This document shows, one piece after another, positions 10,580 to 22,731 of a stretch of 64,000 nucleotides of DNA. The notes below the pieces were generated by a model. It had not been told where the DNA came from and searched no databases. It saw only the letters and a program-made list of their open reading frames with translations. Position numbers and translations under genes: made by a program. Origin of the DNA: Candidatus Bathyarchaeia archaeon (GTDB lineage Archaea; Thermoproteota; Bathyarchaeia; Bathyarchaeales; Bathycorpusculaceae); the NCBI GenBank assembly GCA_041447175.1, contig CP166960.1:569365-633364 (forward strand). The letters run 5' to 3'. Numbering within the stretch: position 1 is the stretch's first letter; every line of letters begins with the position of its first letter.

Positions 10580-10659
10580 TCTCCGTTTTCTTTGTAAATA
10601 CCAAACCCATTTAGCTGGCAGGGCGATAACTTCTTTAAATCGGCTACCGTGAAGTGGTT

Positions 10660-11187
10660 ATGGACGAGATAGAAGCAAAAATTCTTGAAGTCGATCAAAA
10701 CCAAGTACGTTCAACTTTGGCTATGCTTGGAGCCAAAAAAGTTTTTGACGATGAAATGGAAACTCTTTTCTTCGACTTTGAAACAAACTCCATTGCTAAC
10801 GCAAAAAATGTGCTTCGTCTGCGCCGAGAGGGGCATCAAGTTGTCCTCACCTTCAAAAATGTCTTAAGTAATCAGGCCGCCAAAATTGCTCATGAATATT
10901 CTGTTGAGGTTTCCAGTTTAGATGATGCTCGTAAAATTCTTGAATGCCTTGGTTTACATGTGGTTGAGAGTATGCAGAAGCACCGTGTGAGTTACCAGCT
11001 GGGTGAGGTGCATTTTGATTTGGACTGCTACAAGGGTGATTATTCGTTTATTCCTGAATTTTTAGAAATTGAAGCCCCTAACATCGAGCTAATTCACAAG
11101 TATGCTCAGACGTTAGGCTTTTCCCCAAAAGACTGCTTGCCCTGGTCAACTTTAGATTTGATCAATCACTATTCTAAAGGGAAATAG
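10660..11187 (+). CDS. CYTH-domain protein (class IV adenylate cyclase / ThTPase-like)
   Basis: A 175-residue protein starting at ATG 10660. The CYTH signature ExExK is at the N-terminus (MDEIEAKILEVD), followed by the tunnel motifs NVLRLRREG, VVLTFKN, HEYSVEVSS, KHRVSYQLGEVHFDLDCY and EFLEIEAPN. CYTH enzymes act on triphosphates (adenylate cyclase, thiamine triphosphatase, tripolyphosphatase) with divalent metals. Given the polyphosphate genes just downstream, an inorganic triphosphatase role is a reasonable inference, not shown. A TTTAAA box at about 10633 places the transcript start near the ATG, so the mRNA may be leaderless. Confidence 0.85.
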   Translation: MDEIEAKILEVDQNQVRSTLAMLGAKKVFDDEMETLFFDFETNSIANAKNVLRLRREGHQVVLTFKNVLSNQAAKIAHEYSVEVSSLDDARKILECLGLHVVESMQKHRVSYQLGEVHFDLDCYKGDYSFIPEFLEIEAPNIELIHKYAQTLGFSPKDCLPWSTLDLINHYSKGK

Positions 11188-11206: not shown

Positions 11207-11686
11207 TTATTTTGTGGCTTTTTTGACTGTGTGGGTTGTGCGGCGTTTGGTTGGTTTTGTTTTTGATGGCGTTGAGGCGGGTTTCTTTGTTGGTTCTTCC
11301 TCTGTTGCTTTTTTTGATACGTTCCATTCAGGGTATTTGCCGTGTTCTTTTTTGAAGTTTTCAAGGAGTTCTTGTTGTGTTGCTTTGGGTGTGTCGCTTG
11401 CTATCCATCCTACTGCAACCTTTTCTAGGTAGCCCTCGTTTAGTAGTTTTGTGTTGATTTTTGTGATGGTTTTTCCGCCGTATCCGGCTAAGTAGCCTCC
11501 GAAGATTCTTTTGGACAGTTTTTTTGTGCGTCCTATGTATAGAATGTCTGAGGCGTTTTTTTCCGAGGGTGTGTTTTCAATGATTGCTAGTACGTTCCCT
11601 TTATTGTTGGGGAGTTTGGACATTGAGAGTTCTTTTAGAAATAGGAATTCGGTGAAGCCTTTTTCTTTCAAAGTCGAAGAATTCAT
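11207..11686 (-). CDS. GIY-YIG-like domain protein with basic tail
   Basis: A 159-residue protein. The core resembles the GIY-YIG nuclease fold: DILYIGRTKKLSKRIFGGY, then KTITKINTKLL, VAVGWIA and a putative metal-binding Glu in QQELLENFKKEHGKYPEWN. The first GIY strand (NVLAIIEN) is divergent. The last 40 residues are a Lys/Thr/Pro-rich tail, typical of a nucleic-acid-binding extension. It may be a stand-alone nuclease or an inactive DNA-binding relative. The promoter on the minus strand has a 17-base perfect palindrome overlapping the predicted start site. Confidence 0.65.
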   Translation of the reverse strand: MNSSTLKEKGFTEFLFLKELSMSKLPNNKGNVLAIIENTPSEKNASDILYIGRTKKLSKRIFGGYLAGYGGKTITKINTKLLNEGYLEKVAVGWIASDTPKATQQELLENFKKEHGKYPEWNVSKKATEEEPTKKPASTPSKTKPTKRRTTHTVKKATK

Positions 11687-12042: not shown

Positions 12043-14196
12043 TTGTTAAACCGCAGTAAAATTGATTCTCAAGCCACAAACAATGTTCCGAACCAGAAAA
12101 AGAACCTTGATGACCCAACTTACTTCATTAACCGTGAACTCAGCTGGGTACGCTTCAATGTCCGTGTGTTAGAAGAAGCACACGACATCTGGCATCCTCT
12201 GCTGGAGAGAGTCAAATTCCTCGCCATCTGCGGAAGCAATCTCGACGAATTCTTCATGACCCGCATCCCGCGGCTACTTAAAAAAATTAACAGAGGCTCC
12301 CGCGAGAAATCCATTGACGGCATGAACCCAATGGAGCAAGTGGAGGCTACCCGACGAGAAATTCTGCCCCTCATCGTCAACCACGCCAATTGTTGGAGCG
12401 ACGAAATAATACCAGCGCTCGCAAAAGAAGACATCTGCATAAAAAACTTCAACACACTACCCGATAAGCAAAAGGGTCTGCTGCGAAAATGGTTCACCAA
12501 AGTCGTTTTGCCTTCTATGAAAAAACCCATGGAAGGATTTGACGGCAACTCCATTGAAAATCTCCACATAAACCTTTTCATACCCAACGGTTTTCCAGAA
12601 AAAGACTCCTGCTACGTTATTGATGTTCCCACAGAAAAGTACGGACGCCTAATTACAATTCCAAAAAACGAACATGAACTTGATGACTCCGCCCCCGTGG
12701 ACCGGGTCGTTTATGAGTACGTTTTCTTGGAAGATTTAGTTGCAAACAACTTGGATTTGCTGTTTCCAAACGAACAAAACTTGACTTCTTACCCTTTTAG
12801 ATTAACCCGTAACGGCGAAATAGCGCTTTTAATGGATGAATCCGCGGATTTCCTCAACATCGTCAAAAAAAGCCTAAAGAAACGAAAAGCTGGTTTTCCC
12901 AGCAGACTTGAATTTGACAAGCGAACCCCCATGTTTCTGCGGGAAGCCATGGCCACTGCTTTAGGTTTACCTGACTACCTGATTTACGAGTTTGATGGTC
13001 CGTTGGGGCTTGTGGACCTTTGGCAACTGAACAAAATAAACCGTCCTGACCTTAAGGATAAAGCATTTTTGCCTTCCATTTCTCCATTGCTAACTATGGA
13101 TAAAAATATTTTTGAAACCATATCCAAACGGGATTTTGTTCTATATCACCCCTATGATGGCTTTGAAGTAATTGTTGACCTTCTCAAAGAAGCTGCTCAA
13201 GACGAAAACGTCACGGAAATCTGCATAACCATGTACCGTATGGACCACAAATCGCCCGTCGTTGATGCGTTAATGGCGGCTGCAAAGAACGGCAAAAAAG
13301 TCGTCGCCGTTATCGAGTTAAAAGCCAAATTTGACGAAGAAAACAACATCCTTCTGGTAGCAAAGCTAAGAGAGGCAGGCGTAAACACAGTTTACAATTT
13401 TCCCCAATTCAAAGTCCACGCAAAACTCTGCCTGATTCTTAGGAAAGAAAAAAATGGCTTGGTTCGCTACAGTCATCTGGGTTCTGGTAACTACAATTCG
13501 GTGACCGCAAAAATTTATGGCGACATCGGCTACCTTACGGCTAAGCCTGAGGTCGGCAGGGAACTTGGGGAACTTTTTAATGTGCTCATAAATGGGCTGC
13601 CCGAGCAGGAAAAAGCCTTCAAGCATCTGCTTGTGGCTCCCAAGACTTTGAAAAACGAAATCCTCAAGCGGATCGATAAAGAAATCGCGTTTCATCAACA
13701 AACCGGAAAAGGATACTTAGCCTTTAAACTTAACAATCTTGAAGAAAAAGACGTTATCCAAGCTTTATACCGTGCCTCCATGGCGGGAATTAAAATTGAC
13801 CTCAATGTAAGAGGGCTCTGCTGCTTAAAACCCCAAATACCCGGCGTTAGCGAAAACATAACCGTCATATCCATTGTTGGGCGTTTTCTAGAGCATGCCC
13901 GAATTTACTACTTCCAGGATGGGGATGGAGGAGAAATGTTGTTGGGCAGTTCAGATTTGATGTTTAGGAACCTAAACGAACGTGTCGAGGTACTTTTCTC
14001 TGTGCCCGACGCGAAAATTCGGCGGTCAATTCTAGATAACATGCTGAAAATTCATCTTCGTGATAACGTCAAAGCTAGAAAACTTCTCAGCGACGGGACT
14101 TACCAACGGGTTACTCCTAAAGAGAACGAAGAAATCATCAATTCTCAATCCTGGCTTATTCAACATCGAGGCATTTGGCATGAATGCATCCGCTGA
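12043..14196 (+). CDS. ppk1: Polyphosphate kinase 1
   Basis: A 717-residue PPK1, which reversibly transfers the ATP gamma-phosphate to polyphosphate. The N domain begins YFINRELSWVRFNVRVLEEA and the H domain SNLDEFFMTRI. The catalytic domains contain ITMYRMDHKSPVVDAL, the autophosphorylated His in FPQFKVHAK (about residue 459) and the second conserved His in FLEHARIYYF (about 618), plus ERVEVLF near the end. TTG start at 12043. It is the first of three consecutive genes that form a polyphosphate operon; the next gene starts 17 bases before its stop. Confidence 0.96.
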   Translation: MLNRSKIDSQATNNVPNQKKNLDDPTYFINRELSWVRFNVRVLEEAHDIWHPLLERVKFLAICGSNLDEFFMTRIPRLLKKINRGSREKSIDGMNPMEQVEATRREILPLIVNHANCWSDEIIPALAKEDICIKNFNTLPDKQKGLLRKWFTKVVLPSMKKPMEGFDGNSIENLHINLFIPNGFPEKDSCYVIDVPTEKYGRLITIPKNEHELDDSAPVDRVVYEYVFLEDLVANNLDLLFPNEQNLTSYPFRLTRNGEIALLMDESADFLNIVKKSLKKRKAGFPSRLEFDKRTPMFLREAMATALGLPDYLIYEFDGPLGLVDLWQLNKINRPDLKDKAFLPSISPLLTMDKNIFETISKRDFVLYHPYDGFEVIVDLLKEAAQDENVTEICITMYRMDHKSPVVDALMAAAKNGKKVVAVIELKAKFDEENNILLVAKLREAGVNTVYNFPQFKVHAKLCLILRKEKNGLVRYSHLGSGNYNSVTAKIYGDIGYLTAKPEVGRELGELFNVLINGLPEQEKAFKHLLVAPKTLKNEILKRIDKEIAFHQQTGKGYLAFKLNNLEEKDVIQALYRASMAGIKIDLNVRGLCCLKPQIPGVSENITVISIVGRFLEHARIYYFQDGDGGEMLLGSSDLMFRNLNERVEVLFSVPDAKIRRSILDNMLKIHLRDNVKARKLLSDGTYQRVTPKENEEIINSQSWLIQHRGIWHECIR

Positions 14197-16504
14197 GCCC
14201 CAGCCGAAAAACCCCAGTTTCTGCAAATTTGGCGCTCAAACTGTGCTTAGTCTTATGCAAACTCTTGAAGCTCAAATCGGCGGCGTGGTTGAAAGCCAGG
14301 ACATTGAATATATTCATAAAATGAGGGTTACCTCTCGTCGAATCCGCGCGGCTATGCCTCTTTTCAAGACTTGTTTTCCTAAGAAAAAATTCAAAAAGTG
14401 GCTTGGTGAAGTAAAAAAAGTAACTTCTCTGCTTGGTGACGCCAGAGACCTTGATGTTCAAATTGAATTCATAAAGCAGTACATAGAGAAGCTGGGTGCT
14501 TCTTCTCGGGACCGAACGGGTATGTTGCTTTTGCTAAAAAATCATCAAGTTCACCGCGGTGACGTTCAGGCTCCGGTGGTGGCTGGGCTTGAAGAATTGA
14601 AGCAGGCCTCTGTTTTGCCTGACTTGACCCGTTTTTGTAATCAAATCATTGAAGAGTTGCCTCAAACCCCTTTTGATGCTTCTTTGGTTTTGGAAAAAGC
14701 TTTCTGGGATATATCAACGGGAATAGACGCTTTTTTGGCTCTGGAAGAGTATGTTCACCAAGAAAACGAAGTTCTGGCTCATCATAAGCTGAGAATTCAA
14801 GCTAAACATCTGCGATACACGATGGAAGCTTTCGCGCCGCTCTACCCAACCCAACTATCAGACGAAATAAAAACCATGAAAGCTATCCAAGATACTCTGG
14901 GCGAAATGCATGATTGCGATGTTTGGATCGAAAAAATCCCCGATTTTATCGCTAAAACAAAAACTGTTCACTCAACCAAAAGCAGGGCAACCTCCAAAAA
15001 TGAGGCGTCATTGCTGAACTTTCTTGATTACATAAAGAATCAACGGAAAAGCCACTACAACAATTTCGTTCAACTTTGGGATAGCAGTAGAGCGGAAAAC
15101 TTTTTTGAGAACCTCAGAAAAACTGCAAACGCAGATTTAGTTTTCGACCAAACAAAAGTCAATGGGGTTCTTGTAGGTGGGGCAAAAATTGCCGTTTTTG
15201 CTGATGTTCATGCTAACCTGCACGCTTTAAAGGCGGTTATGCAAGATGCCCAAGCCCGGGGGGCAGTTGCATTTCTGAATGCGGGGGACTCAGTGGGTTT
15301 TGGTGCTTTTCCTAATGAGGCTCTTAGACTTTTGCATTCTCACAAGGTAGCCAGCATCTTGGGTAACTACGACTTGGAAGTCGTTGAGAAACGTGTCAAA
15401 GGAAATGGCGCAAAGAAAACTGCCTTGCTTTTTGCACAGAAAGAATTGGAGCCGTCTTGCGTGTCGTATTTGCTTTCTTTTCCTAAGGAACTCCGTTTAG
15501 AGTTAGGCGGCAAACGGATTCTTGTGGTGCATGGAAGTCCCGACTCCATTGAAGAACACCTTTACCCTAAAACTCCTGCGAAACGGCTTAGGTCACTAGC
15601 CAAAAAGGCAAACGCCGACTTGGTGATTGTGGGGCACTCTCATGAACAGTTTCAAACGCAGGTTAACCAAACCTTGTTTGTTAACCCGGGTAGTGTTGGG
15701 CGACCTGGTGACGGTAACTCTCAAGCAGCATACGCTCTTTTGAGTTTTGACCCCTTTAAAGTTGAGTTGATTCGGTTAGACTATAACGTTGCCGCCGCCG
15801 CCAATGCTTTACGGAGAAAGGGTCTTCCTGAAAGCTTGGCTCAAATGCTCATTAGAGGCGTATCCTTGGATGCGGTTCTTCAAAAAGACCAACGCCAAAA
15901 GGAGGCGTTACTTGAGCATCCAGAAAAAGTGGCGCAACACTCTAAACGCGTCGCCAAGACGTACCTGAGGAACAATAAGCATGGAGAGCAGGTTAAAAAC
16001 CTCGCTTTAAGCTTCTTTGACGGCTTAAGTAGTTTGCATAAGCTTGGTCCGCGAGAACGGTGCTGGCTTGAATGCGCTGCCCTTTTGCATGATGTCGGCT
16101 TGGCACGTGGCGCAACAGCACACAACAAAACCTCGCTAAAGCTGATTCTTAACGATTCAAGTTTACCGTTTTCCTCTGAAGACCGCATGATAATCGCAAG
16201 TATAGCTCGTTATCACCGTAGAGGCTTTCCTAAACAAAAACACTACAATCTGGCATCTTTAAGCCAAGTGAATGTGCGAAAAGTGGCTGTTTTATCAAGC
16301 TTCTTGCGGGTGGCGGACGGGTTAGACTACACCCATGAGTCCAACGTTAAAAGCCTGAGCTTCAATGTTGGCTCCAAACGAGTTACTGTTGAATGTTTAG
16401 CTTCCTCAAATCTCGCTTTAGAGGAGCAGGCTTTTAATAAAAAGAAGGACTTGTTTGAAGAGGTCTTTAAGAAAAAACTGGTGTTACTATGGAAGCAACC
16501 ATGA
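14180..16504 (+). CDS. CHAD - metallophosphoesterase - HD three-domain fusion
   Basis: A 774-residue protein with three modules. Residues ~15-310 form a CHAD domain (HKMRVTSRRIRAAM; LRIQAKHLRYTMEAFAPLY), a helical module that binds polyphosphate. Residues ~335-545 are a calcineurin-like phosphoesterase with all metal motifs: FADVHANLHAL, GDSVGFG, GNYD, VVHGSP and VGHSH. Residues ~590-774 are an HD-type domain (LLHDVGLARG; ARYHRRGFP; LRVADGLDYTH) that resembles the C-terminal HD domain of the Ppx encoded next. Start taken at ATG 14180, overlapping ppk1 by 17 bases; its TGA overlaps the ppx ATG. Placement between ppk1 and ppx implies a polyphosphate-linked phosphatase or regulator. The substrate is unknown. 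Confidence 0.88.
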   Translation: MNASAEPQPKNPSFCKFGAQTVLSLMQTLEAQIGGVVESQDIEYIHKMRVTSRRIRAAMPLFKTCFPKKKFKKWLGEVKKVTSLLGDARDLDVQIEFIKQYIEKLGASSRDRTGMLLLLKNHQVHRGDVQAPVVAGLEELKQASVLPDLTRFCNQIIEELPQTPFDASLVLEKAFWDISTGIDAFLALEEYVHQENEVLAHHKLRIQAKHLRYTMEAFAPLYPTQLSDEIKTMKAIQDTLGEMHDCDVWIEKIPDFIAKTKTVHSTKSRATSKNEASLLNFLDYIKNQRKSHYNNFVQLWDSSRAENFFENLRKTANADLVFDQTKVNGVLVGGAKIAVFADVHANLHALKAVMQDAQARGAVAFLNAGDSVGFGAFPNEALRLLHSHKVASILGNYDLEVVEKRVKGNGAKKTALLFAQKELEPSCVSYLLSFPKELRLELGGKRILVVHGSPDSIEEHLYPKTPAKRLRSLAKKANADLVIVGHSHEQFQTQVNQTLFVNPGSVGRPGDGNSQAAYALLSFDPFKVELIRLDYNVAAAANALRRKGLPESLAQMLIRGVSLDAVLQKDQRQKEALLEHPEKVAQHSKRVAKTYLRNNKHGEQVKNLALSFFDGLSSLHKLGPRERCWLECAALLHDVGLARGATAHNKTSLKLILNDSSLPFSSEDRMIIASIARYHRRGFPKQKHYNLASLSQVNVRKVAVLSSFLRVADGLDYTHESNVKSLSFNVGSKRVTVECLASSNLALEEQAFNKKKDLFEEVFKKKLVLLWKQP

Positions 16505-18069
16505 AAACAGACGAACATGTTGTTGCATTCGTAGATATAGGAACCAACTCTGTGCGTCTTTTAGTGGTTAGGATAAACCCCAACTTTTCCTACACCACCA
16601 TATGCCAAGAAAAAGAAGTGGTTCGTCTGGGTGAACAAGAATTCAAAGACCATCTTCTCAAGCCAGACGCAATGGACCGAACCGTGTTGGTATGCCAAAG
16701 ATTTGCTGAGTTGGCTAAAACTTACGGCGCCACCAAAATCATCTCGATGGGTACATCGGCAATTCGTGAAGCACAAAACCAAGCCGAATTTCTCCAACGA
16801 TTATATAGAGAAACGGGGCTTGAAGTTCGCGTCATTTCTGGAATCGAAGAAGCGCGGCTTATCTGCTTAGGCGTTTCCGACGGCGCTGACTTAGGAGACG
16901 AGCGTGCCATCTTCATCGACTTGGGTGGGGGCAGTACGGAAATCTCTATTGGAAACCAGCAAGGTTGCTTTTACGCTCACAGCTTGCGGCTGGGGGCGAT
17001 TCGTCTGACCACGCGGTTTATAGGCGAAGGCTGGACGGGACACATTCCCACGAGCGTTTACAAACAGATGAAAAAGTACGTCAGCAGCCAAATTGGCATC
17101 GTTAAATCCGAAATCAAGGAGTGCGGCGCAAGGAAAGCGTGGGGTTCCTCAGGTACCGTCATAAATTTGGCGGAAATCACGAATCGCCTGTTTAAAAAGA
17201 ACGGTGACCGAAGCAGCATGGTTTTAACGCGTAAGAGCCTCAAAAAGCTGGAGCCGATCCTTTGCTCCTCGACGCTTGAGGAACGTCGAAAAATTCCCGG
17301 CATCAACCCTCCCCGCGCCGACATAATTGTTGCAGGAGCCGCCATAATTGAATCCATAATGGATGAGTTTGGTTTAGAAGAACTGAACGTAAGCCGAAAA
17401 GAACTCCGAGATGGCATGTTGGTTGATTACCTTTCCAATTTTGCTGGTTTTCGAGAGCTTAAGAGAACTCCTTTGCGGAATAGAAGTGTGCTTAATTTGT
17501 GTCGTTCCTGTAATTTTGATGAAAGCCATTCTCAAACCGTAATTTTCTTAGCTCTGCAGCTTTTTGACAGCGCTAAACAGGTTGGGCTGCACAATTTAGG
17601 TGACCAAGAACGGGAACTGCTACGGTATGCTGCGACTTTACATGATGTGGGCGATTTCTTGTCGTTTAATGACCATCATCTTCATTCGCATTACATTATT
17701 AGTAACGCGGGGCTGCTTGGTTTTGAGAAAAATGAAATCACCATAATGGCCACCGTTGCGCGTTTTCACCGCAAAAAGCTGCCTTCAAAAAAAGCCTTAA
17801 AAGCCACCGGTTTGGATGAGCAGTCGAAAAACGTTGTTGCTGTTCTTTCAACGTTTTTGCGTTTTGCCGAAAAGCTTGACCGGAGTCATAGTGGACTGAT
17901 TAGGAACGCTGAGTTCAGTCGTTTGGGGAAAGACCAGGTTTTGCTTACCTTCTATTCTGACTCAGACTGTAGTTTAGAGCAGTGGAGCATTCTTCAAAAT
18001 CGAAAAGCTTTCTTCGATGTGTTTGCTATGCAGCTAACGGTGAAGTGCATCGTTACGCCTGCATCTTAA
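16501..18069 (+). CDS. ppx: Exopolyphosphatase / GppA phosphatase
   Basis: A 522-residue Ppx/GppA family protein with an actin-like fold: FVDIGTNSVRLLVV (phosphate 1), ISMGTSAIREAQN, SGIEEARL, FIDLGGGSTEISI (phosphate 2) and AWGSSGTVINLAEI. The C-terminal half (~330-520) is an HD-type domain with AATLHDVGDFLSFNDHHLHS and FLRFAEKLDRSHSG. Ppx removes terminal phosphate from polyphosphate; related enzymes hydrolyse pppGpp. Start chosen at ATG 16501, which overlaps the previous TGA as ATGA; a start 12 bases earlier is also open. It is the third gene of the ppk1 operon. Confidence 0.93.
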   Translation: MKTDEHVVAFVDIGTNSVRLLVVRINPNFSYTTICQEKEVVRLGEQEFKDHLLKPDAMDRTVLVCQRFAELAKTYGATKIISMGTSAIREAQNQAEFLQRLYRETGLEVRVISGIEEARLICLGVSDGADLGDERAIFIDLGGGSTEISIGNQQGCFYAHSLRLGAIRLTTRFIGEGWTGHIPTSVYKQMKKYVSSQIGIVKSEIKECGARKAWGSSGTVINLAEITNRLFKKNGDRSSMVLTRKSLKKLEPILCSSTLEERRKIPGINPPRADIIVAGAAIIESIMDEFGLEELNVSRKELRDGMLVDYLSNFAGFRELKRTPLRNRSVLNLCRSCNFDESHSQTVIFLALQLFDSAKQVGLHNLGDQERELLRYAATLHDVGDFLSFNDHHLHSHYIISNAGLLGFEKNEITIMATVARFHRKKLPSKKALKATGLDEQSKNVVAVLSTFLRFAEKLDRSHSGLIRNAEFSRLGKDQVLLTFYSDSDCSLEQWSILQNRKAFFDVFAMQLTVKCIVTPAS

Positions 18070-18320: not shown

Positions 18321-19226
18321 TTATTCTTCTTTAAGCTCTGTTTCCGCCTTTTCTAAGGCTTCCTGCTGGTCTTTGCTGAGTTTCGGGTATTCTAAGCCTA
18401 ACTTCTTCATCTGTGCCACCATAATCCCTGAAATAGATGCATGTGTAACCCATTTCTTGTCGGCTGGAATAACATACCACGGCGCCCATTCAGTGCTGGT
18501 TGCGTTAAGCATGTCTTCATACACTTCCATGTACTCTTTCCACTTTGACCTCTCAGAAAGATCTGTCAACGAAAATTTCCAATGCTTATCTGCGTCTTCA
18601 AGCCGTTCAAGCAGCCGTTTTTTCTGCTCCTCCTTGGATACATTCAAGAAAAACTTCAATACTACTGTGCCACTTCGGACCAAATGCTGCTCAAAAGAGT
18701 TTATGTCTTCGTACCTTAAGCTCCAAAAGTCTTTCTTGATGGCTTCAGGCGGCAGTTTTTGTTTTGCGAGAATTTCTGGGTGCACCCGGACAACGAGCAC
18801 ATCCTCATAGTATGAACGGTTAAAGATACCGATGCGTCCTCTTTCAGGAAGCGCCTTTGAATGCCGCCACAAAAAATCGTGGTCTAACTCTTCTGCTGAA
18901 GGCGTTTTAAAACTGGTGACTTGGCATCCCTGTGGGTTAACTCCCGACATAACGTGCCTAATTAAACTGTCTTTGCCGGCTGCATCCATTCCCTGCAGAA
19001 TAATCAGCATCGAATAGGTGTCGCTTGCCCAGAATAACTCCTGCATGTCAACAAGTTTCTTTCTGTTTTCCTGCAGAATCAAAAGCGCTTTCTCTTTTAC
19101 TGCTTTTTTTCCTTTTTTGTTTTCTTCTTTTTGTGCCCACTTAGGAATCCAGCATGGGTCATAATTTTTTAATTCAATTTTTTTGTTAGGCGGCACTTTG
19201 AAGTCGTCTGTTTCCCCCATTTGCAA
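18321..19226 (-). CDS. ppk2: Polyphosphate kinase 2
   Basis: A 301-residue PPK2 of the single-domain type, which uses polyphosphate to phosphorylate nucleotides. Walker A is seen as QGMDAAGKDS (about 78-87), the lid/Walker B region as GRIGIFNRSYYEDVLVVRVHP, and the C-terminal signature as HWKFSLTDLSERSKWKEY. PPK2 is unrelated to PPK1, so this genome has both routes. TTG at 19226 is preceded at 9 bases by GAGGT; ATG 19220 is the alternative. It lies 116 bases downstream of the AbrB-PhoU gene on the same strand. Confidence 0.95.
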   Translation of the reverse strand: MQMGETDDFKVPPNKKIELKNYDPCWIPKWAQKEENKKGKKAVKEKALLILQENRKKLVDMQELFWASDTYSMLIILQGMDAAGKDSLIRHVMSGVNPQGCQVTSFKTPSAEELDHDFLWRHSKALPERGRIGIFNRSYYEDVLVVRVHPEILAKQKLPPEAIKKDFWSLRYEDINSFEQHLVRSGTVVLKFFLNVSKEEQKKRLLERLEDADKHWKFSLTDLSERSKWKEYMEVYEDMLNATSTEWAPWYVIPADKKWVTHASISGIMVAQMKKLGLEYPKLSKDQQEALEKAETELKEE

Positions 19227-19342: not shown

Positions 19343-20425
19343 TTATCCTATGACGGATTCCACGTTCATGTTTAACACAACTTCAGAGATGTCGCTTGCG
19401 TATTCAGCTGTTCTTCGCACGCTTTCGATGGCAAGGCGTAGGTTAGCAACTTCTTCAATGTTGGCGCCCTTAGACAAAAGTATAACTTCTCTTTCCAGCT
19501 TGTATACCTGCGTGATTTTTTCAATTATGCTTTCAGCCAAATTGTAATCGCGTTTAAACAGTGCCTCAACCGAGCTTTCAAACATTGAAATCGCTAAATT
19601 GCTTAATTCTTCGATTTTCTCAAGGGGTTCTTCACTTACAGGTGTTTTGAGCAAAATCACTTTTTCGGCGATTTTTGTGGCGTGGTCGGCGCTTCTCTCG
19701 ACGGCTTTGGCGATTAGTCTGTAGCCGATGCATGTTCTTGGGTTGTCTAAACCGATTTCTCTTACCATCCGTGAGTTGAGCACTGCCATCTTCAGTAGCC
19801 GCACGATGTAGAGCCCAAACCGGTTCACTTCGCGGTCGGTTTCTATGACGCTTTTTGCCATTGAGTAATCCAGTTTTCGAAGTGCGTTCATGGCTTCCCT
19901 GTGCATGGAGGCTGCGATAATGGCCATTCTGCTTAGGGCGCTTTGTACTGTGAGTTCAGGGTAATTTAGCAGAACTTGGAGGGTTAGCTCGTTTGGTGTA
20001 TCGATCACAATTTCTGTGCCGACTAAGTAGTTTCGGGCAAAATCTTTAAGATGATTTCGTGTTTTTGACGATAATGGATGTTTGTTTTGGGATTTTATGT
20101 GGAGGATGTTGTAGCCTATTAAGTATGCGGAGATGGCTTTTCGCATTACTGCGTAGGGATTATCGTTTGGTGTGACTTTGATGAATGCGTCGTCTTTTTT
20201 TTCGGTTTTTTCCATCTTTGGCGGTAGTACGGATAGTGAGCCGTCTTCTTCTTCGCGGATCATCATTGCGCTTCCTTTTTTGAGTTGGTTTTTTGTGACC
20301 CAATCTTTTGGCAGTGAAAGTATGTATGTTGATCCGCCTGTAATTTGGAGTTTTCTTTGTTCTTCGTTTTCGGTTTTTGTTATGTTAGTCAATTTCGGCA
20401 CCGTTTTCTGTTTTTCTATATTCAC
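19343..20425 (-). CDS. AbrB-PhoU fusion, archaeal phosphate regulator
   Basis: A 360-residue protein. Residues ~25-70 form an AbrB/SpoVT-like swapped-hairpin DNA-binding domain (LQITGGSTYILSLPKDWV, LKKGSAMMIREEEDGSL). Two PhoU helical repeats follow (RMAIIAASMHREAMNAL; AKAVERSADHATKIAEKV; SVRRTAEYASDISEVV). In archaea this architecture is thought to replace PhoB-type control by binding DNA directly. It is divergent from pstSCAB-phoU across about 98 bases that contain nested palindromes (20444-20467), a natural target for self- and pst regulation. Confidence 0.9.
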   Translation of the reverse strand: MNIEKQKTVPKLTNITKTENEEQRKLQITGGSTYILSLPKDWVTKNQLKKGSAMMIREEEDGSLSVLPPKMEKTEKKDDAFIKVTPNDNPYAVMRKAISAYLIGYNILHIKSQNKHPLSSKTRNHLKDFARNYLVGTEIVIDTPNELTLQVLLNYPELTVQSALSRMAIIAASMHREAMNALRKLDYSMAKSVIETDREVNRFGLYIVRLLKMAVLNSRMVREIGLDNPRTCIGYRLIAKAVERSADHATKIAEKVILLKTPVSEEPLEKIEELSNLAISMFESSVEALFKRDYNLAESIIEKITQVYKLEREVILLSKGANIEEVANLRLAIESVRRTAEYASDISEVVLNMNVESVIG

Positions 20426-20523: not shown

Positions 20524-22731
20524 ATGAAAACAATGTACCTTGTAGCAGCAATCGTTGCAATTGTAATCATCATAGGCGGCGTTGTCGCTTACACCTACAC
20601 ATCAAGCCCTGCTGCTTCCCCCAGCCCCTCAGCAACTCCAACAGAAACACCAACAAATAATCCCTCCCCCACGTCACCCTCATCAGGAGCCATGCTAACT
20701 GGTTCAGGCGCAACTTTCCCTCAGCCGTTCCTTAACGCTACTATCGTCCAATACACCTCAATGAACCCCAACGTTCAAATTAACTATCAAGGTGGCGGTA
20801 GTGGTAAAGGTGTGACTGACTTTACTGGTAAACTTGTTGATTTTGCCTGTACTGATGCGCCCTTGTCTGCTTCTGAAAGAGAAGCCGCACCAAATGCACT
20901 CCACATTCCCGAGACCATTGGCGCAATCACAATTGCCTATAACCTTCCTGGAATTACTTCTGGTCTAAAACTTGACGGAACAACTCTTGCAAATATTTAC
21001 TTGGGCACTATCACCAACTGGAATGACCCTGCCATTGTTGCTCTCAATCCTGATTTAACTCTCCCCAACCATGTTATTTCTACCGTTCACCGTTCTGACA
21101 GTTCTGGCACTACAAACTGGTTCACCAAGTATCTGGCGTTGGTTAGTCCGACTTGGGAGGAAACTGTTGGCAGTGGCAAATCCGTTCAATGGCCCGGAAC
21201 AAATACTCTAGGCGCTAGCGGAAACTCCAATGTTGCAGCAACCGTTACGCAAACTGAGTACTCAATTGGTTACATTGAGTTGGCTTACGCTCTTGAAAAC
21301 GATGTTCCAGTCGTTGCACTCAAAAATCCTGCAGGCAACTTCATTTCACCTTCACTTGAAACTACAACCGCAGCCGCAGAATCTCTACCATCAAGCGGTT
21401 TGCCCTCTGGAAGCGAGAGTTGGGAAAACGTAATCATTCTTAACGCTCCTGGAGCGCAGGCATACCCGATTGTTACCCCAACATACATGCTGGTTTACCA
21501 AGAACTCAACGTTATACCCAGCATGACTCTACAAAAAGCAACAGTCGTTATGGAGTACATCTGGTACGTAGTCCATGATGGTCAATCACTTGCACCCGCC
21601 CTTGAATACGCGTCACTCCCCTCAAACATTGTGCAAATTGACGAAATGAGCATCTACTCCGTCACATACAACGGTCAACACTTGATTTCTGCCCCAGCCG
21701 CAGCAGCAACACCCGGTCCAGCACAACTAACTGGTTCAGGCGCAACCTTCCCACAACCATTCCTTAACGCCACCATAGTCGAATACACCACAAACATCCG
21801 CCCCAACCTCCAAATTAACTATCAAGGCGGAGGCAGCGGCAAAGGTGTAACTGACTTCACGGGCAAACTAGTTAGTTTCGCATGCACCGATGCGCCCTTG
21901 TCTGCTTCTGAAAGAGAAGCCGCACCAAATGCACTCCACATTCCCGAGACCATTGGCGCAATCACCGTAGCCTATAACCTTCCTGGAATTACTTCTGGTC
22001 TAAAACTTGACGGTGAAACCATAGCTAACATTTACTTGGGCACTATTACCAACTGGAATGACCCTGCAATAACCGCTTTGAACCCTGACCTCACTCTCCC
22101 CGACCACGCCATCTCCACTGTTCACCGCTCCGATAGTTCTGGCACTACAAACTGGTTTACAAAATACCTTGCTATAGTCAGCCCGACTTGGGAGGAAACT
22201 GTTGGCAGTGGCAAATCTGTTCAATGGCCCGGAACAAATACTCTAGGCGCTTCGGGTAACTCTAACGTCGCTGCAACAGTCACACAAACCGAGTACTCAA
22301 TTGGTTACATTGAGTTGGCTTACGCTCTTGAAAACGATGTTCCAGTCGTCGCCATCAAGAACCCCGCAGGTAACTTCATATCCCCAACCCTCGAGTCAAC
22401 CACCGCCGCAGCTGAATCTTTGCCCTCAAGCGGTTTGCCTTCAGGCAGTGAAAGCTGGGAAAACGTAGTCATCCTCAACGCCCCAGGCGAGCAAGCCTAC
22501 CCAATAGTAACGCCAACCTACATGCTGCTGTACAAAGACCTCGGTGTCATCTCTGGCATGGACATGAACAAAGCAACACAACTGGTACAATACATCTGGT
22601 TTGTGGTCCACGACGGTCAATCTCTTGCCCCACCTTTAGAGTATGCAGCACTGCCCTCGAACATCGTGCAAATCAACGAAGCTTCGCTGAACTCAATAAC
22701 TTTCAACGGGCAATCAATTCCAACCCACTGA
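20524..22731 (+). CDS. pstS: Phosphate-binding protein PstS with two tandem PstS domains
   Basis: A 735-residue surface protein. An N-terminal membrane anchor (VAAIVAIVIIIGGVVAY) and a Ser/Thr/Pro-rich linker are followed by two complete PstS domains (~58-390 and ~400-735). Each begins LTGSGATFPQPFLNATIV and has NYQGGGSGKGVTDFTGK, FACTDAPLSASE, AYNLPGITSGLKLDG, VHRSDSSGTTNWFTKYL and SIGYIELAYALENDVPVV. PstS normally has one such domain of 300-350 residues. The domains bind phosphate outside the cell and deliver it to PstCA. First gene of the pst operon; a hairpin plus T-tract follows its stop. The fusion could give two binding sites per carrier. Confidence 0.93.
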   Translation: MKTMYLVAAIVAIVIIIGGVVAYTYTSSPAASPSPSATPTETPTNNPSPTSPSSGAMLTGSGATFPQPFLNATIVQYTSMNPNVQINYQGGGSGKGVTDFTGKLVDFACTDAPLSASEREAAPNALHIPETIGAITIAYNLPGITSGLKLDGTTLANIYLGTITNWNDPAIVALNPDLTLPNHVISTVHRSDSSGTTNWFTKYLALVSPTWEETVGSGKSVQWPGTNTLGASGNSNVAATVTQTEYSIGYIELAYALENDVPVVALKNPAGNFISPSLETTTAAAESLPSSGLPSGSESWENVIILNAPGAQAYPIVTPTYMLVYQELNVIPSMTLQKATVVMEYIWYVVHDGQSLAPALEYASLPSNIVQIDEMSIYSVTYNGQHLISAPAAAATPGPAQLTGSGATFPQPFLNATIVEYTTNIRPNLQINYQGGGSGKGVTDFTGKLVSFACTDAPLSASEREAAPNALHIPETIGAITVAYNLPGITSGLKLDGETIANIYLGTITNWNDPAITALNPDLTLPDHAISTVHRSDSSGTTNWFTKYLAIVSPTWEETVGSGKSVQWPGTNTLGASGNSNVAATVTQTEYSIGYIELAYALENDVPVVAIKNPAGNFISPTLESTTAAAESLPSSGLPSGSESWENVVILNAPGEQAYPIVTPTYMLLYKDLGVISGMDMNKATQLVQYIWFVVHDGQSLAPPLEYAALPSNIVQINEASLNSITFNGQSIPTH
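20695..22731 (+). repeat. Two tandem copies of the pstS domain sequence
   Basis: Copy 1 starts at about 20695 and copy 2 at about 21727, a period of 1032 bases (1035 after a one-codon insertion). Divergence is patchy. Blocks such as 20854-20930 versus 21889-21965 (77 bases) are identical, while adjacent blocks such as the first ~90 bases differ at many synonymous positions. This pattern indicates gene conversion between the copies after duplication. Confidence 0.85.

Follow-up and report, generated by a model that had tools for sequence, protein, structure and literature searches.

Between ppk1 and ppx, a Candidatus Bathyarchaeia archaeon encodes a single protein that joins a CHAD domain, a metallophosphoesterase (MPE) domain and an HD domain, in this order. 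The best-supported reading of this fusion is that of a hydrolase acting on polyphosphate (polyP), an activity that we infer, and we lean slightly toward a polyP-anchored, metal-dependent phosphoanhydride hydrolase, i.e., a candidate polyphosphatase. We favor this reading because the polyP-binding residues of the CHAD domain, the metal ligands of the MPE domain and the ligands of the HD domain were all kept while the sequences diverged. All of the components are known already, and it is their combination that appears to be undescribed within the literature searched. In that literature, mostly titles and abstracts, which do not prove priority, we found no description of CHAD fused to MPE and/or HD; the titles and abstracts that surfaced for CHAD together with polyphosphate and metallophosphoesterase dealt only with CYTH/TTM enzymes, and CHAD goes unmentioned in a survey that covered the polyP genes of archaea.

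A three-domain gene in the ppk1-ppx operon

The window (the whole 64,000-nucleotide stretch that was analyzed) belongs to a genome consisting of one 2.73 Mb contig. It contains the following features.

10654 to 11187, +, CYTH (triphosphate tunnel) protein, upstream of ppk1 (PF01928, 5.3e-15)
12043 to 14196, +, ppk1, polyphosphate kinase 1 (TIGR03705, 695 bits, above the cut-off)
14180 to 16504, +, CHAD-MPE-HD fusion gene, 774 aa (open reading frame with three Pfam domains; orthologue N termini align at ATG 14180)
14210 to 15139, +, CHAD domain of the fusion, aa 11 to 320 (PF05235, 2.1e-43; 6qva, Z 25.4)
15179 to 15868, +, MPE domain of the fusion, YfcE/SapH type, aa ~333 to 563 (PF12850, 7.5e-25; TIGR00040, above the cut-off; 3rqz, Z 30.6)
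15890 to 16501, +, HD domain of the fusion, Ppx/GppA domain III family, aa ~571 to 774 (PF21447, 1.3e-15; 8jgt, Z 21.6)
16489 to 18069, +, ppx, Ppx/GppA catalytic plus HD domain (PF02541, 1e-58; PF21447, 2.2e-29)
18321 to 19226, -, ppk2, PPK2-family polyphosphate kinase (PF03976, 1.1e-63; TIGR03709, above the cut-off)

In the open reading frame listing, the fusion frame can be extended upstream to a GTG at 14060, giving 814 aa, and it was in this longer frame that Pfam matched CHAD, Metallophos_2 (PF12850), Ppx-GppA_III (PF21447) and, at 7.7e-6, HD (PF01966). The GTG is an unlikely start, as the N termini of orthologues match ATG 14180 (alignment A1). The first-pass annotation had chosen this ATG, and its open reading frame and coordinates are correct; it had also described a three-domain, polyP-linked protein in a ppk1-ppx operon, which the Pfam domains and the two neighboring genes bear out. 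The CHAD-MPE-HD arrangement is thus confirmed. Chance read-through or a fusion made by the assembly is ruled out by many independent full-length orthologues at 43 to 57% identity.

The ppk1 and fusion frames overlap by 17 nt and the fusion and ppx frames by 16 nt, and the fusion is probably cotranslated with PPK1 and Ppx. Both active-site His motifs, KVHAKL and EHARI, are present in the ppk1 product. The CYTH gene is kept as a neighbor in several relatives (L040, L047, and L052 to L054). Beyond ppk2, the wider locus contains a PhoU-type protein gene at 19343 and a pst phosphate transport cluster from 20524.

Some neighbors have features of their own. The PhoU-domain protein (19343 to 20425), which adjoins ppk2 and pst and is kept in relatives, has an N-terminal MazE/AbrB-type domain (PF04014). 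The PstS gene (20524 to 22731, 735 aa) encodes the phosphate-binding protein twice in tandem, with 88% identity between the copies, and the PstS of the relative L040 is one copy of 396 aa. Upstream of ppk1 and convergent with the CYTH gene lies a gene for a small GIY-YIG-like protein (11207 to 11686; a weak PF01541 match); such a gene stands beside the operon in most of the Bathyarchaeia seen.

Predicted folds and conserved residues

Structure prediction, a check named in the first-pass annotation, recovered all three domains. The AlphaFold2 model of the fusion (24 sequences; pLDDT 88, pTM 0.63) is confident within the domains, which we interpret one by one and not in their relative placement. 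In structural comparisons (VIA-align 2), the CHAD model matched 6qva, a complex with polyP (rmsd 3.2, 294 aligned residues), the MPE model matched 3rqz (rmsd 2.2, 217 aligned), followed by PH1004 (Z 30.3) and SapH (3qfm, Z 27.9), and the HD model matched 8jgt, the Ppx of Deinococcus radiodurans (rmsd 2.0, 162 aligned). In PDB titles, SapH appears both as an asymmetric Ap4A hydrolase and as a phosphodiesterase. Fold likeness alone reveals no function.

The CHAD domain combines the profile match with the double four-helix bundle fold. In CtCHAD, polyP is bound by the residues H253, R256, R260, R296, R418 and Y419; mutating them together cuts the affinity ~80- to 150-fold (PMC6537752). These residues and K441 align with H46, R49, R53, R89, R212, Y213 and K234 of the fusion, so that every polyP-binding basic residue of CtCHAD has an equivalent. 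All seven are invariant in 24 orthologues, as are R205 and K209. From these residues we predict that the CHAD domain of the fusion binds polyP. The calculated charge at pH 7 is +3.6 for CHAD, +7.5 for the MPE and +14.5 for the HD domain, which makes all three basic.

The MPE domain matches the NCBIfam model of the YfcE subfamily, TIGR00040, with 60.7 bits (cut-off, 56.25) and has the full DxH-GD-GN-H-GHxH ligand set of class III/YfcE-type enzymes, namely, D342, H344, D370, N396, H451, H486 and H488. All seven ligands are found in 44 of 48 module MPEs in the ligand census; one of the remaining four is a cut sequence, and two, a paralogue at L044 and L127, have lost several ligands. The metal motifs had been described at first as all intact. 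This holds for the seven metal ligands, but the motif set is atypical: motif IV reads GNYD instead of GNHD, and a Tyr takes the place of the phosphate-binding/general-acid His. No module MPE among 47 has a His following the Asn of motif IV, whereas 19 of 20 stand-alone MPEs from the same phylum do; this position is Tyr or Phe in every triple fusion examined and can be Ala, Ile, Leu or Ser in split forms. In a tree of MPE domains, the triple fusions form one group (support 94) apart from the stand-alone MPEs. YfcE, which has a GNCD motif, is an Mn2+-dependent phosphodiesterase that is inactive on phosphomonoesters and cyclic nucleotides (PMC4320098). Judged from sequence, the replacement of the GNHD His points to a YfcE-like diester or anhydride chemistry rather than to that of a monoesterase.

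The HD domain (pI 9.8) carries the H...HD...D set of its superfamily as H601, H637-D638 and D713, together with H648 and H679, all of them invariant in alignment A2. Asp occupies the D713 position in 62 of 63 module HDs, whereas all 57 archaeal Ppx HDs compared have Glu or Asn there. Of the Ppx/GppA architecture, only domain III (PF21447) was matched. Because the fusion lacks the Ppx catalytic domain (PF02541) it is not a Ppx, although it may act in the manner of a polyphosphatase. The HD domain had been likened to the C terminus of the neighboring Ppx, and the two indeed belong to the same family. A recent local copy is ruled out by the HD tree, a short-search tree with some long branches, in which a branch with an SH-aLRT support of 99 separates all 47 Ppx HDs from all HDs of CHAD-MPE-HD proteins, of CHAD-HD proteins and of the HD genes adjoining CHAD-MPE. 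The solitary, distant HD protein of L037 lies between both sides on a long branch, closer to the Ppx side. The tree thus points to the module HD being an old, separate lineage.

Fused and split forms of the module

Triple fusions occur in many Bathyarchaeia, in two family-level groups, and in three Candidatus Methanolliviera; the named relatives that share the arrangement include Candidatus Bathyarchaeota and Candidatus Bathycorpusculum. The three-part layout reported at the outset therefore exists, but it is not the sole form, because CHAD-HD, CHAD-MPE and MPE-HD proteins are found as well. In Methanomicrobia, CHAD-HD proteins without an MPE are encoded at 30 of the 30 loci fetched for that query, most of them between ppk1 and ppx; the others are at contig ends, next to a broken ppx or in loci where ppx is absent. 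Other Methanomicrobia have CHAD-MPE proteins of ~550 to 800 aa, followed at many loci by a separate gene for an HD protein of ~200 aa and/or by ppx, and other Halobacteriota have MPE-HD proteins of ~470 to 505 aa. The gene row is ppk1, CHAD and MPE-HD at L174 and ppk1, CHAD-like, ParA/MinD-like ATPase, MPE-HD and ppx at L170 and L172. CHAD alone follows ppk1 at L135 and L136, the planctomycete locus L056 has a CHAD gene directly followed by an HD gene, and the order at L047 is ppk1, fusion and ppk2. The forms of the module (CHAD-MPE plus HD, CHAD-HD, CHAD plus MPE-HD, and the single protein) mostly adjoin ppk1 and/or ppx. Finding the same parts both fused and split at one locus is a classical sign of joint function. 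We consider CHAD, MPE and HD functionally linked because such combinations recur at the same locus.

Several loci show further variations. The ATPase genes between CHAD-like and MPE-HD (L170, 2343 to 3125; L172, 8365 to 9114) are called ParA/MinD-like by their GVGKT-type N terminus only, and their products possibly position polyP granules. Several methanogens have two tandem ppk1 genes ahead of the CHAD-MPE gene (L123, L124 and L137). Peatland Bathyarchaeota (L041, L044 and L046) have two CHAD-MPE-HD genes, the second of which lies a few kilobases away and encodes a C-terminal extension; it is this second copy at L044 whose MPE lacks several metal ligands. Viral carriage of the fusion has no support, as no relatives of it were found among the viral contigs searched.

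Co-occurrence with ppk1 and presence of Ppx

Among 251 genomes of the class Bathyarchaeia, ppk1 was found in 23, the fusion in 21 and both in 20 (Fisher P = 2e-25, a test that ignores kinship); in the lone fusion genome without a ppk1 match, the fusion is at a contig end. In 149 Methanomicrobia, the class of L055, ppk1 was present in 86 of 86 genomes that the CHAD-HD query matched versus 9 of the 63 others (Fisher P = 1e-31, likewise ignoring kinship).

The Ppx/GppA catalytic domain was not found in three Methanolliviera and three bathyarchaeal g204 metagenome-assembled genomes (MAGs) that bear the fusion, all of them incomplete (74 to 82% complete where known), nor in G501 and G510, which are perhaps the same assemblies as two of the six. 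Of 14 control genomes, 10 were positive in the same search, Sulfolobus and Methanosarcina among them. In the Methanolliviera loci, ppk1 adjoins the fusion, and the same holds for two g204 MAGs; in the third g204 MAG, the fusion is at a contig end. A plain replacement of Ppx by the fusion is not general: all nine bearers tested in one bathyarchaeal family (f1) also have Ppx, and the fusion does not look like such a replacement because most bathyarchaeal bearers have Ppx next door. Nor is the loss of Ppx specific to MPE bearers, since at least 3 of ~33 genomes with CHAD-HD and no MPE also lack it.

Discussion

How would such a polyP hydrolase work? We hypothesize that the CHAD domain holds on to polyP, either a long chain or a granule, a step that rests on conserved binding residues defined experimentally in homologues. 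The MPE domain, with a di-metal site probably of the Mn2+/Co2+ type, would then hydrolyze phosphoanhydride bonds of the CHAD-bound chain. Its intact ligands, its nearest characterized relatives and the genetic context point to this step, and SapH, the nearest characterized MPE structure, cuts a phosphoanhydride bond in Ap4A. Since the MPE resembles YfcE in lacking the GNHD His of monoesterase and cyclic-nucleotide chemistry, it would most likely attack bonds inside the chain or short products. The basic HD domain, with its full H-HD-D set, could be a second phosphohydrolase site or a chain-guiding or dimerizing surface; this is the weakest step of the proposed mechanism.

What counts against a hydrolase is the CHAD-HD form, since many methanogens keep it without an MPE at the same locus and the MPE is thus dispensable to the core role. 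These proteins, common between ppk1 and ppx, speak for a fusion that is mainly a phosin, i.e., a polyP granule scaffold or a regulator of PPK1 and Ppx; CHAD and HD would bind polyP and partner enzymes, with the HD domain pairing with that of Ppx, and the MPE would be auxiliary. In line with such a role, the module tracks ppk1 rather than ppx, its three domains are all basic, the MPE ligands have degenerated in a few members, and CHAD proteins attach to polyP granules, CHAD itself being thought to have no enzymatic activity (PMC6537752). However, metal ligands conserved in both MPE and HD across 43 to 57% identity would be needless for a pure scaffold, and some archaea encode MPE-HD as a protein of its own, with CHAD not fused. 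We regard the phosin role as rather unlikely.

Ppx/GppA relatives include pppGpp hydrolases, and the PPK1 and PPK2 reactions handle nucleotides. Both facts, together with the Ap4A hydrolase SapH being the closest characterized structural relative of the MPE, would fit a nucleotide hydrolase (of Ap4A/ApnN, of pppGpp-like compounds or of NTP/NDP side products of PPK) gated by CHAD-bound polyP. SapH is only ~26% identical to the MPE over the domain, though, no nucleotide-binding feature was identified in the fusion, and the association is with ppk1 and a polyP locus, so we consider this function improbable. It is very improbable that the fusion is an ordinary CHAD family member whose additional domains are incidental and confined to one lineage. 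PolyP operons and CYTH-CHAD fusions are well known for this family (PMC6537752), but MPE and HD turn up again, differently partitioned, in distantly related archaea, and both carry residues specific to the module; this recurrence already contradicts the idea.

Returning to the polyP hydrolase, we tentatively extend it to the other forms: CHAD, MPE and HD, carried by one to three proteins with PPK1, might constitute an unrecognized archaeal polyP-degrading module, which would supply the missing polyphosphatase where Ppx is absent and would probably be an endopolyphosphatase that has two hydrolytic sites. Descriptions of prokaryotic polyP metabolism are usually limited to Ppx and PPK; if active, the fusion would add a polyphosphatase of the metallophosphoesterase type. 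The breakdown of polyP in archaea is poorly understood, and the module is a concrete, conserved candidate for Bathyarchaeia and Methanolliviera that lack Ppx. Many archaea have no known polyP-degrading genes, and a 2026 study found in Haloferax volcanii, which has ppk1 and no Ppx, an Mn2+/Co2+-dependent polyP-degrading activity of unidentified source (PMC13318637). The module does not itself explain that activity, because H. volcanii, a member of our control set, gave no CHAD match. The split proteins of methanogens are a natural set for telling binding from catalysis.

Each part of the fusion has counterparts in known systems. Yeast Ppn1 and Ppn2 are eukaryotic, polyP-cutting enzymes with a calcineurin-like MPE fold and, to our knowledge, without CHAD or HD; the likeness to the fusion drawn here is one of fold. 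They are classed as endopolyphosphatases (PMC13318637). CYTH-CHAD (TTM-CHAD) proteins such as E. coli YgiF likewise join CHAD to a phosphohydrolase and are polyP linked. Their partner, however, has the CYTH/TTM fold, whereas here MPE and HD follow C-terminally of CHAD and CYTH is encoded by a separate gene upstream. The phosins PptA (of the Streptomyces ppk-pptA-nudix operon), CtCHAD and SsCHAD share the polyP-binding CHAD residues and the ppk operon but, unlike the fusion, have no fused MPE or HD. Mutants of PptA led to the proposal that it assists polyP degradation (PMC8003754). Ppx/GppA exopolyphosphatases, whose gene adjoins that of the fusion, have an HD domain of the same family; they contain PF02541 and have Glu or Asn as the last HD ligand, whereas the fusion lacks PF02541 and keeps the Asp. 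Finally, YfcE, MJ0936 and SapH have the fold and the seven metal ligands in common with the MPE of the fusion, which passes the cut-off of their TIGR00040 model. YfcE also lacks the His in motif IV, where the fusions have Tyr or Phe and neither Cys nor His. What sets the MPE of the module apart from all three is its association, by fusion or as a neighboring gene, with polyP-binding and HD domains.
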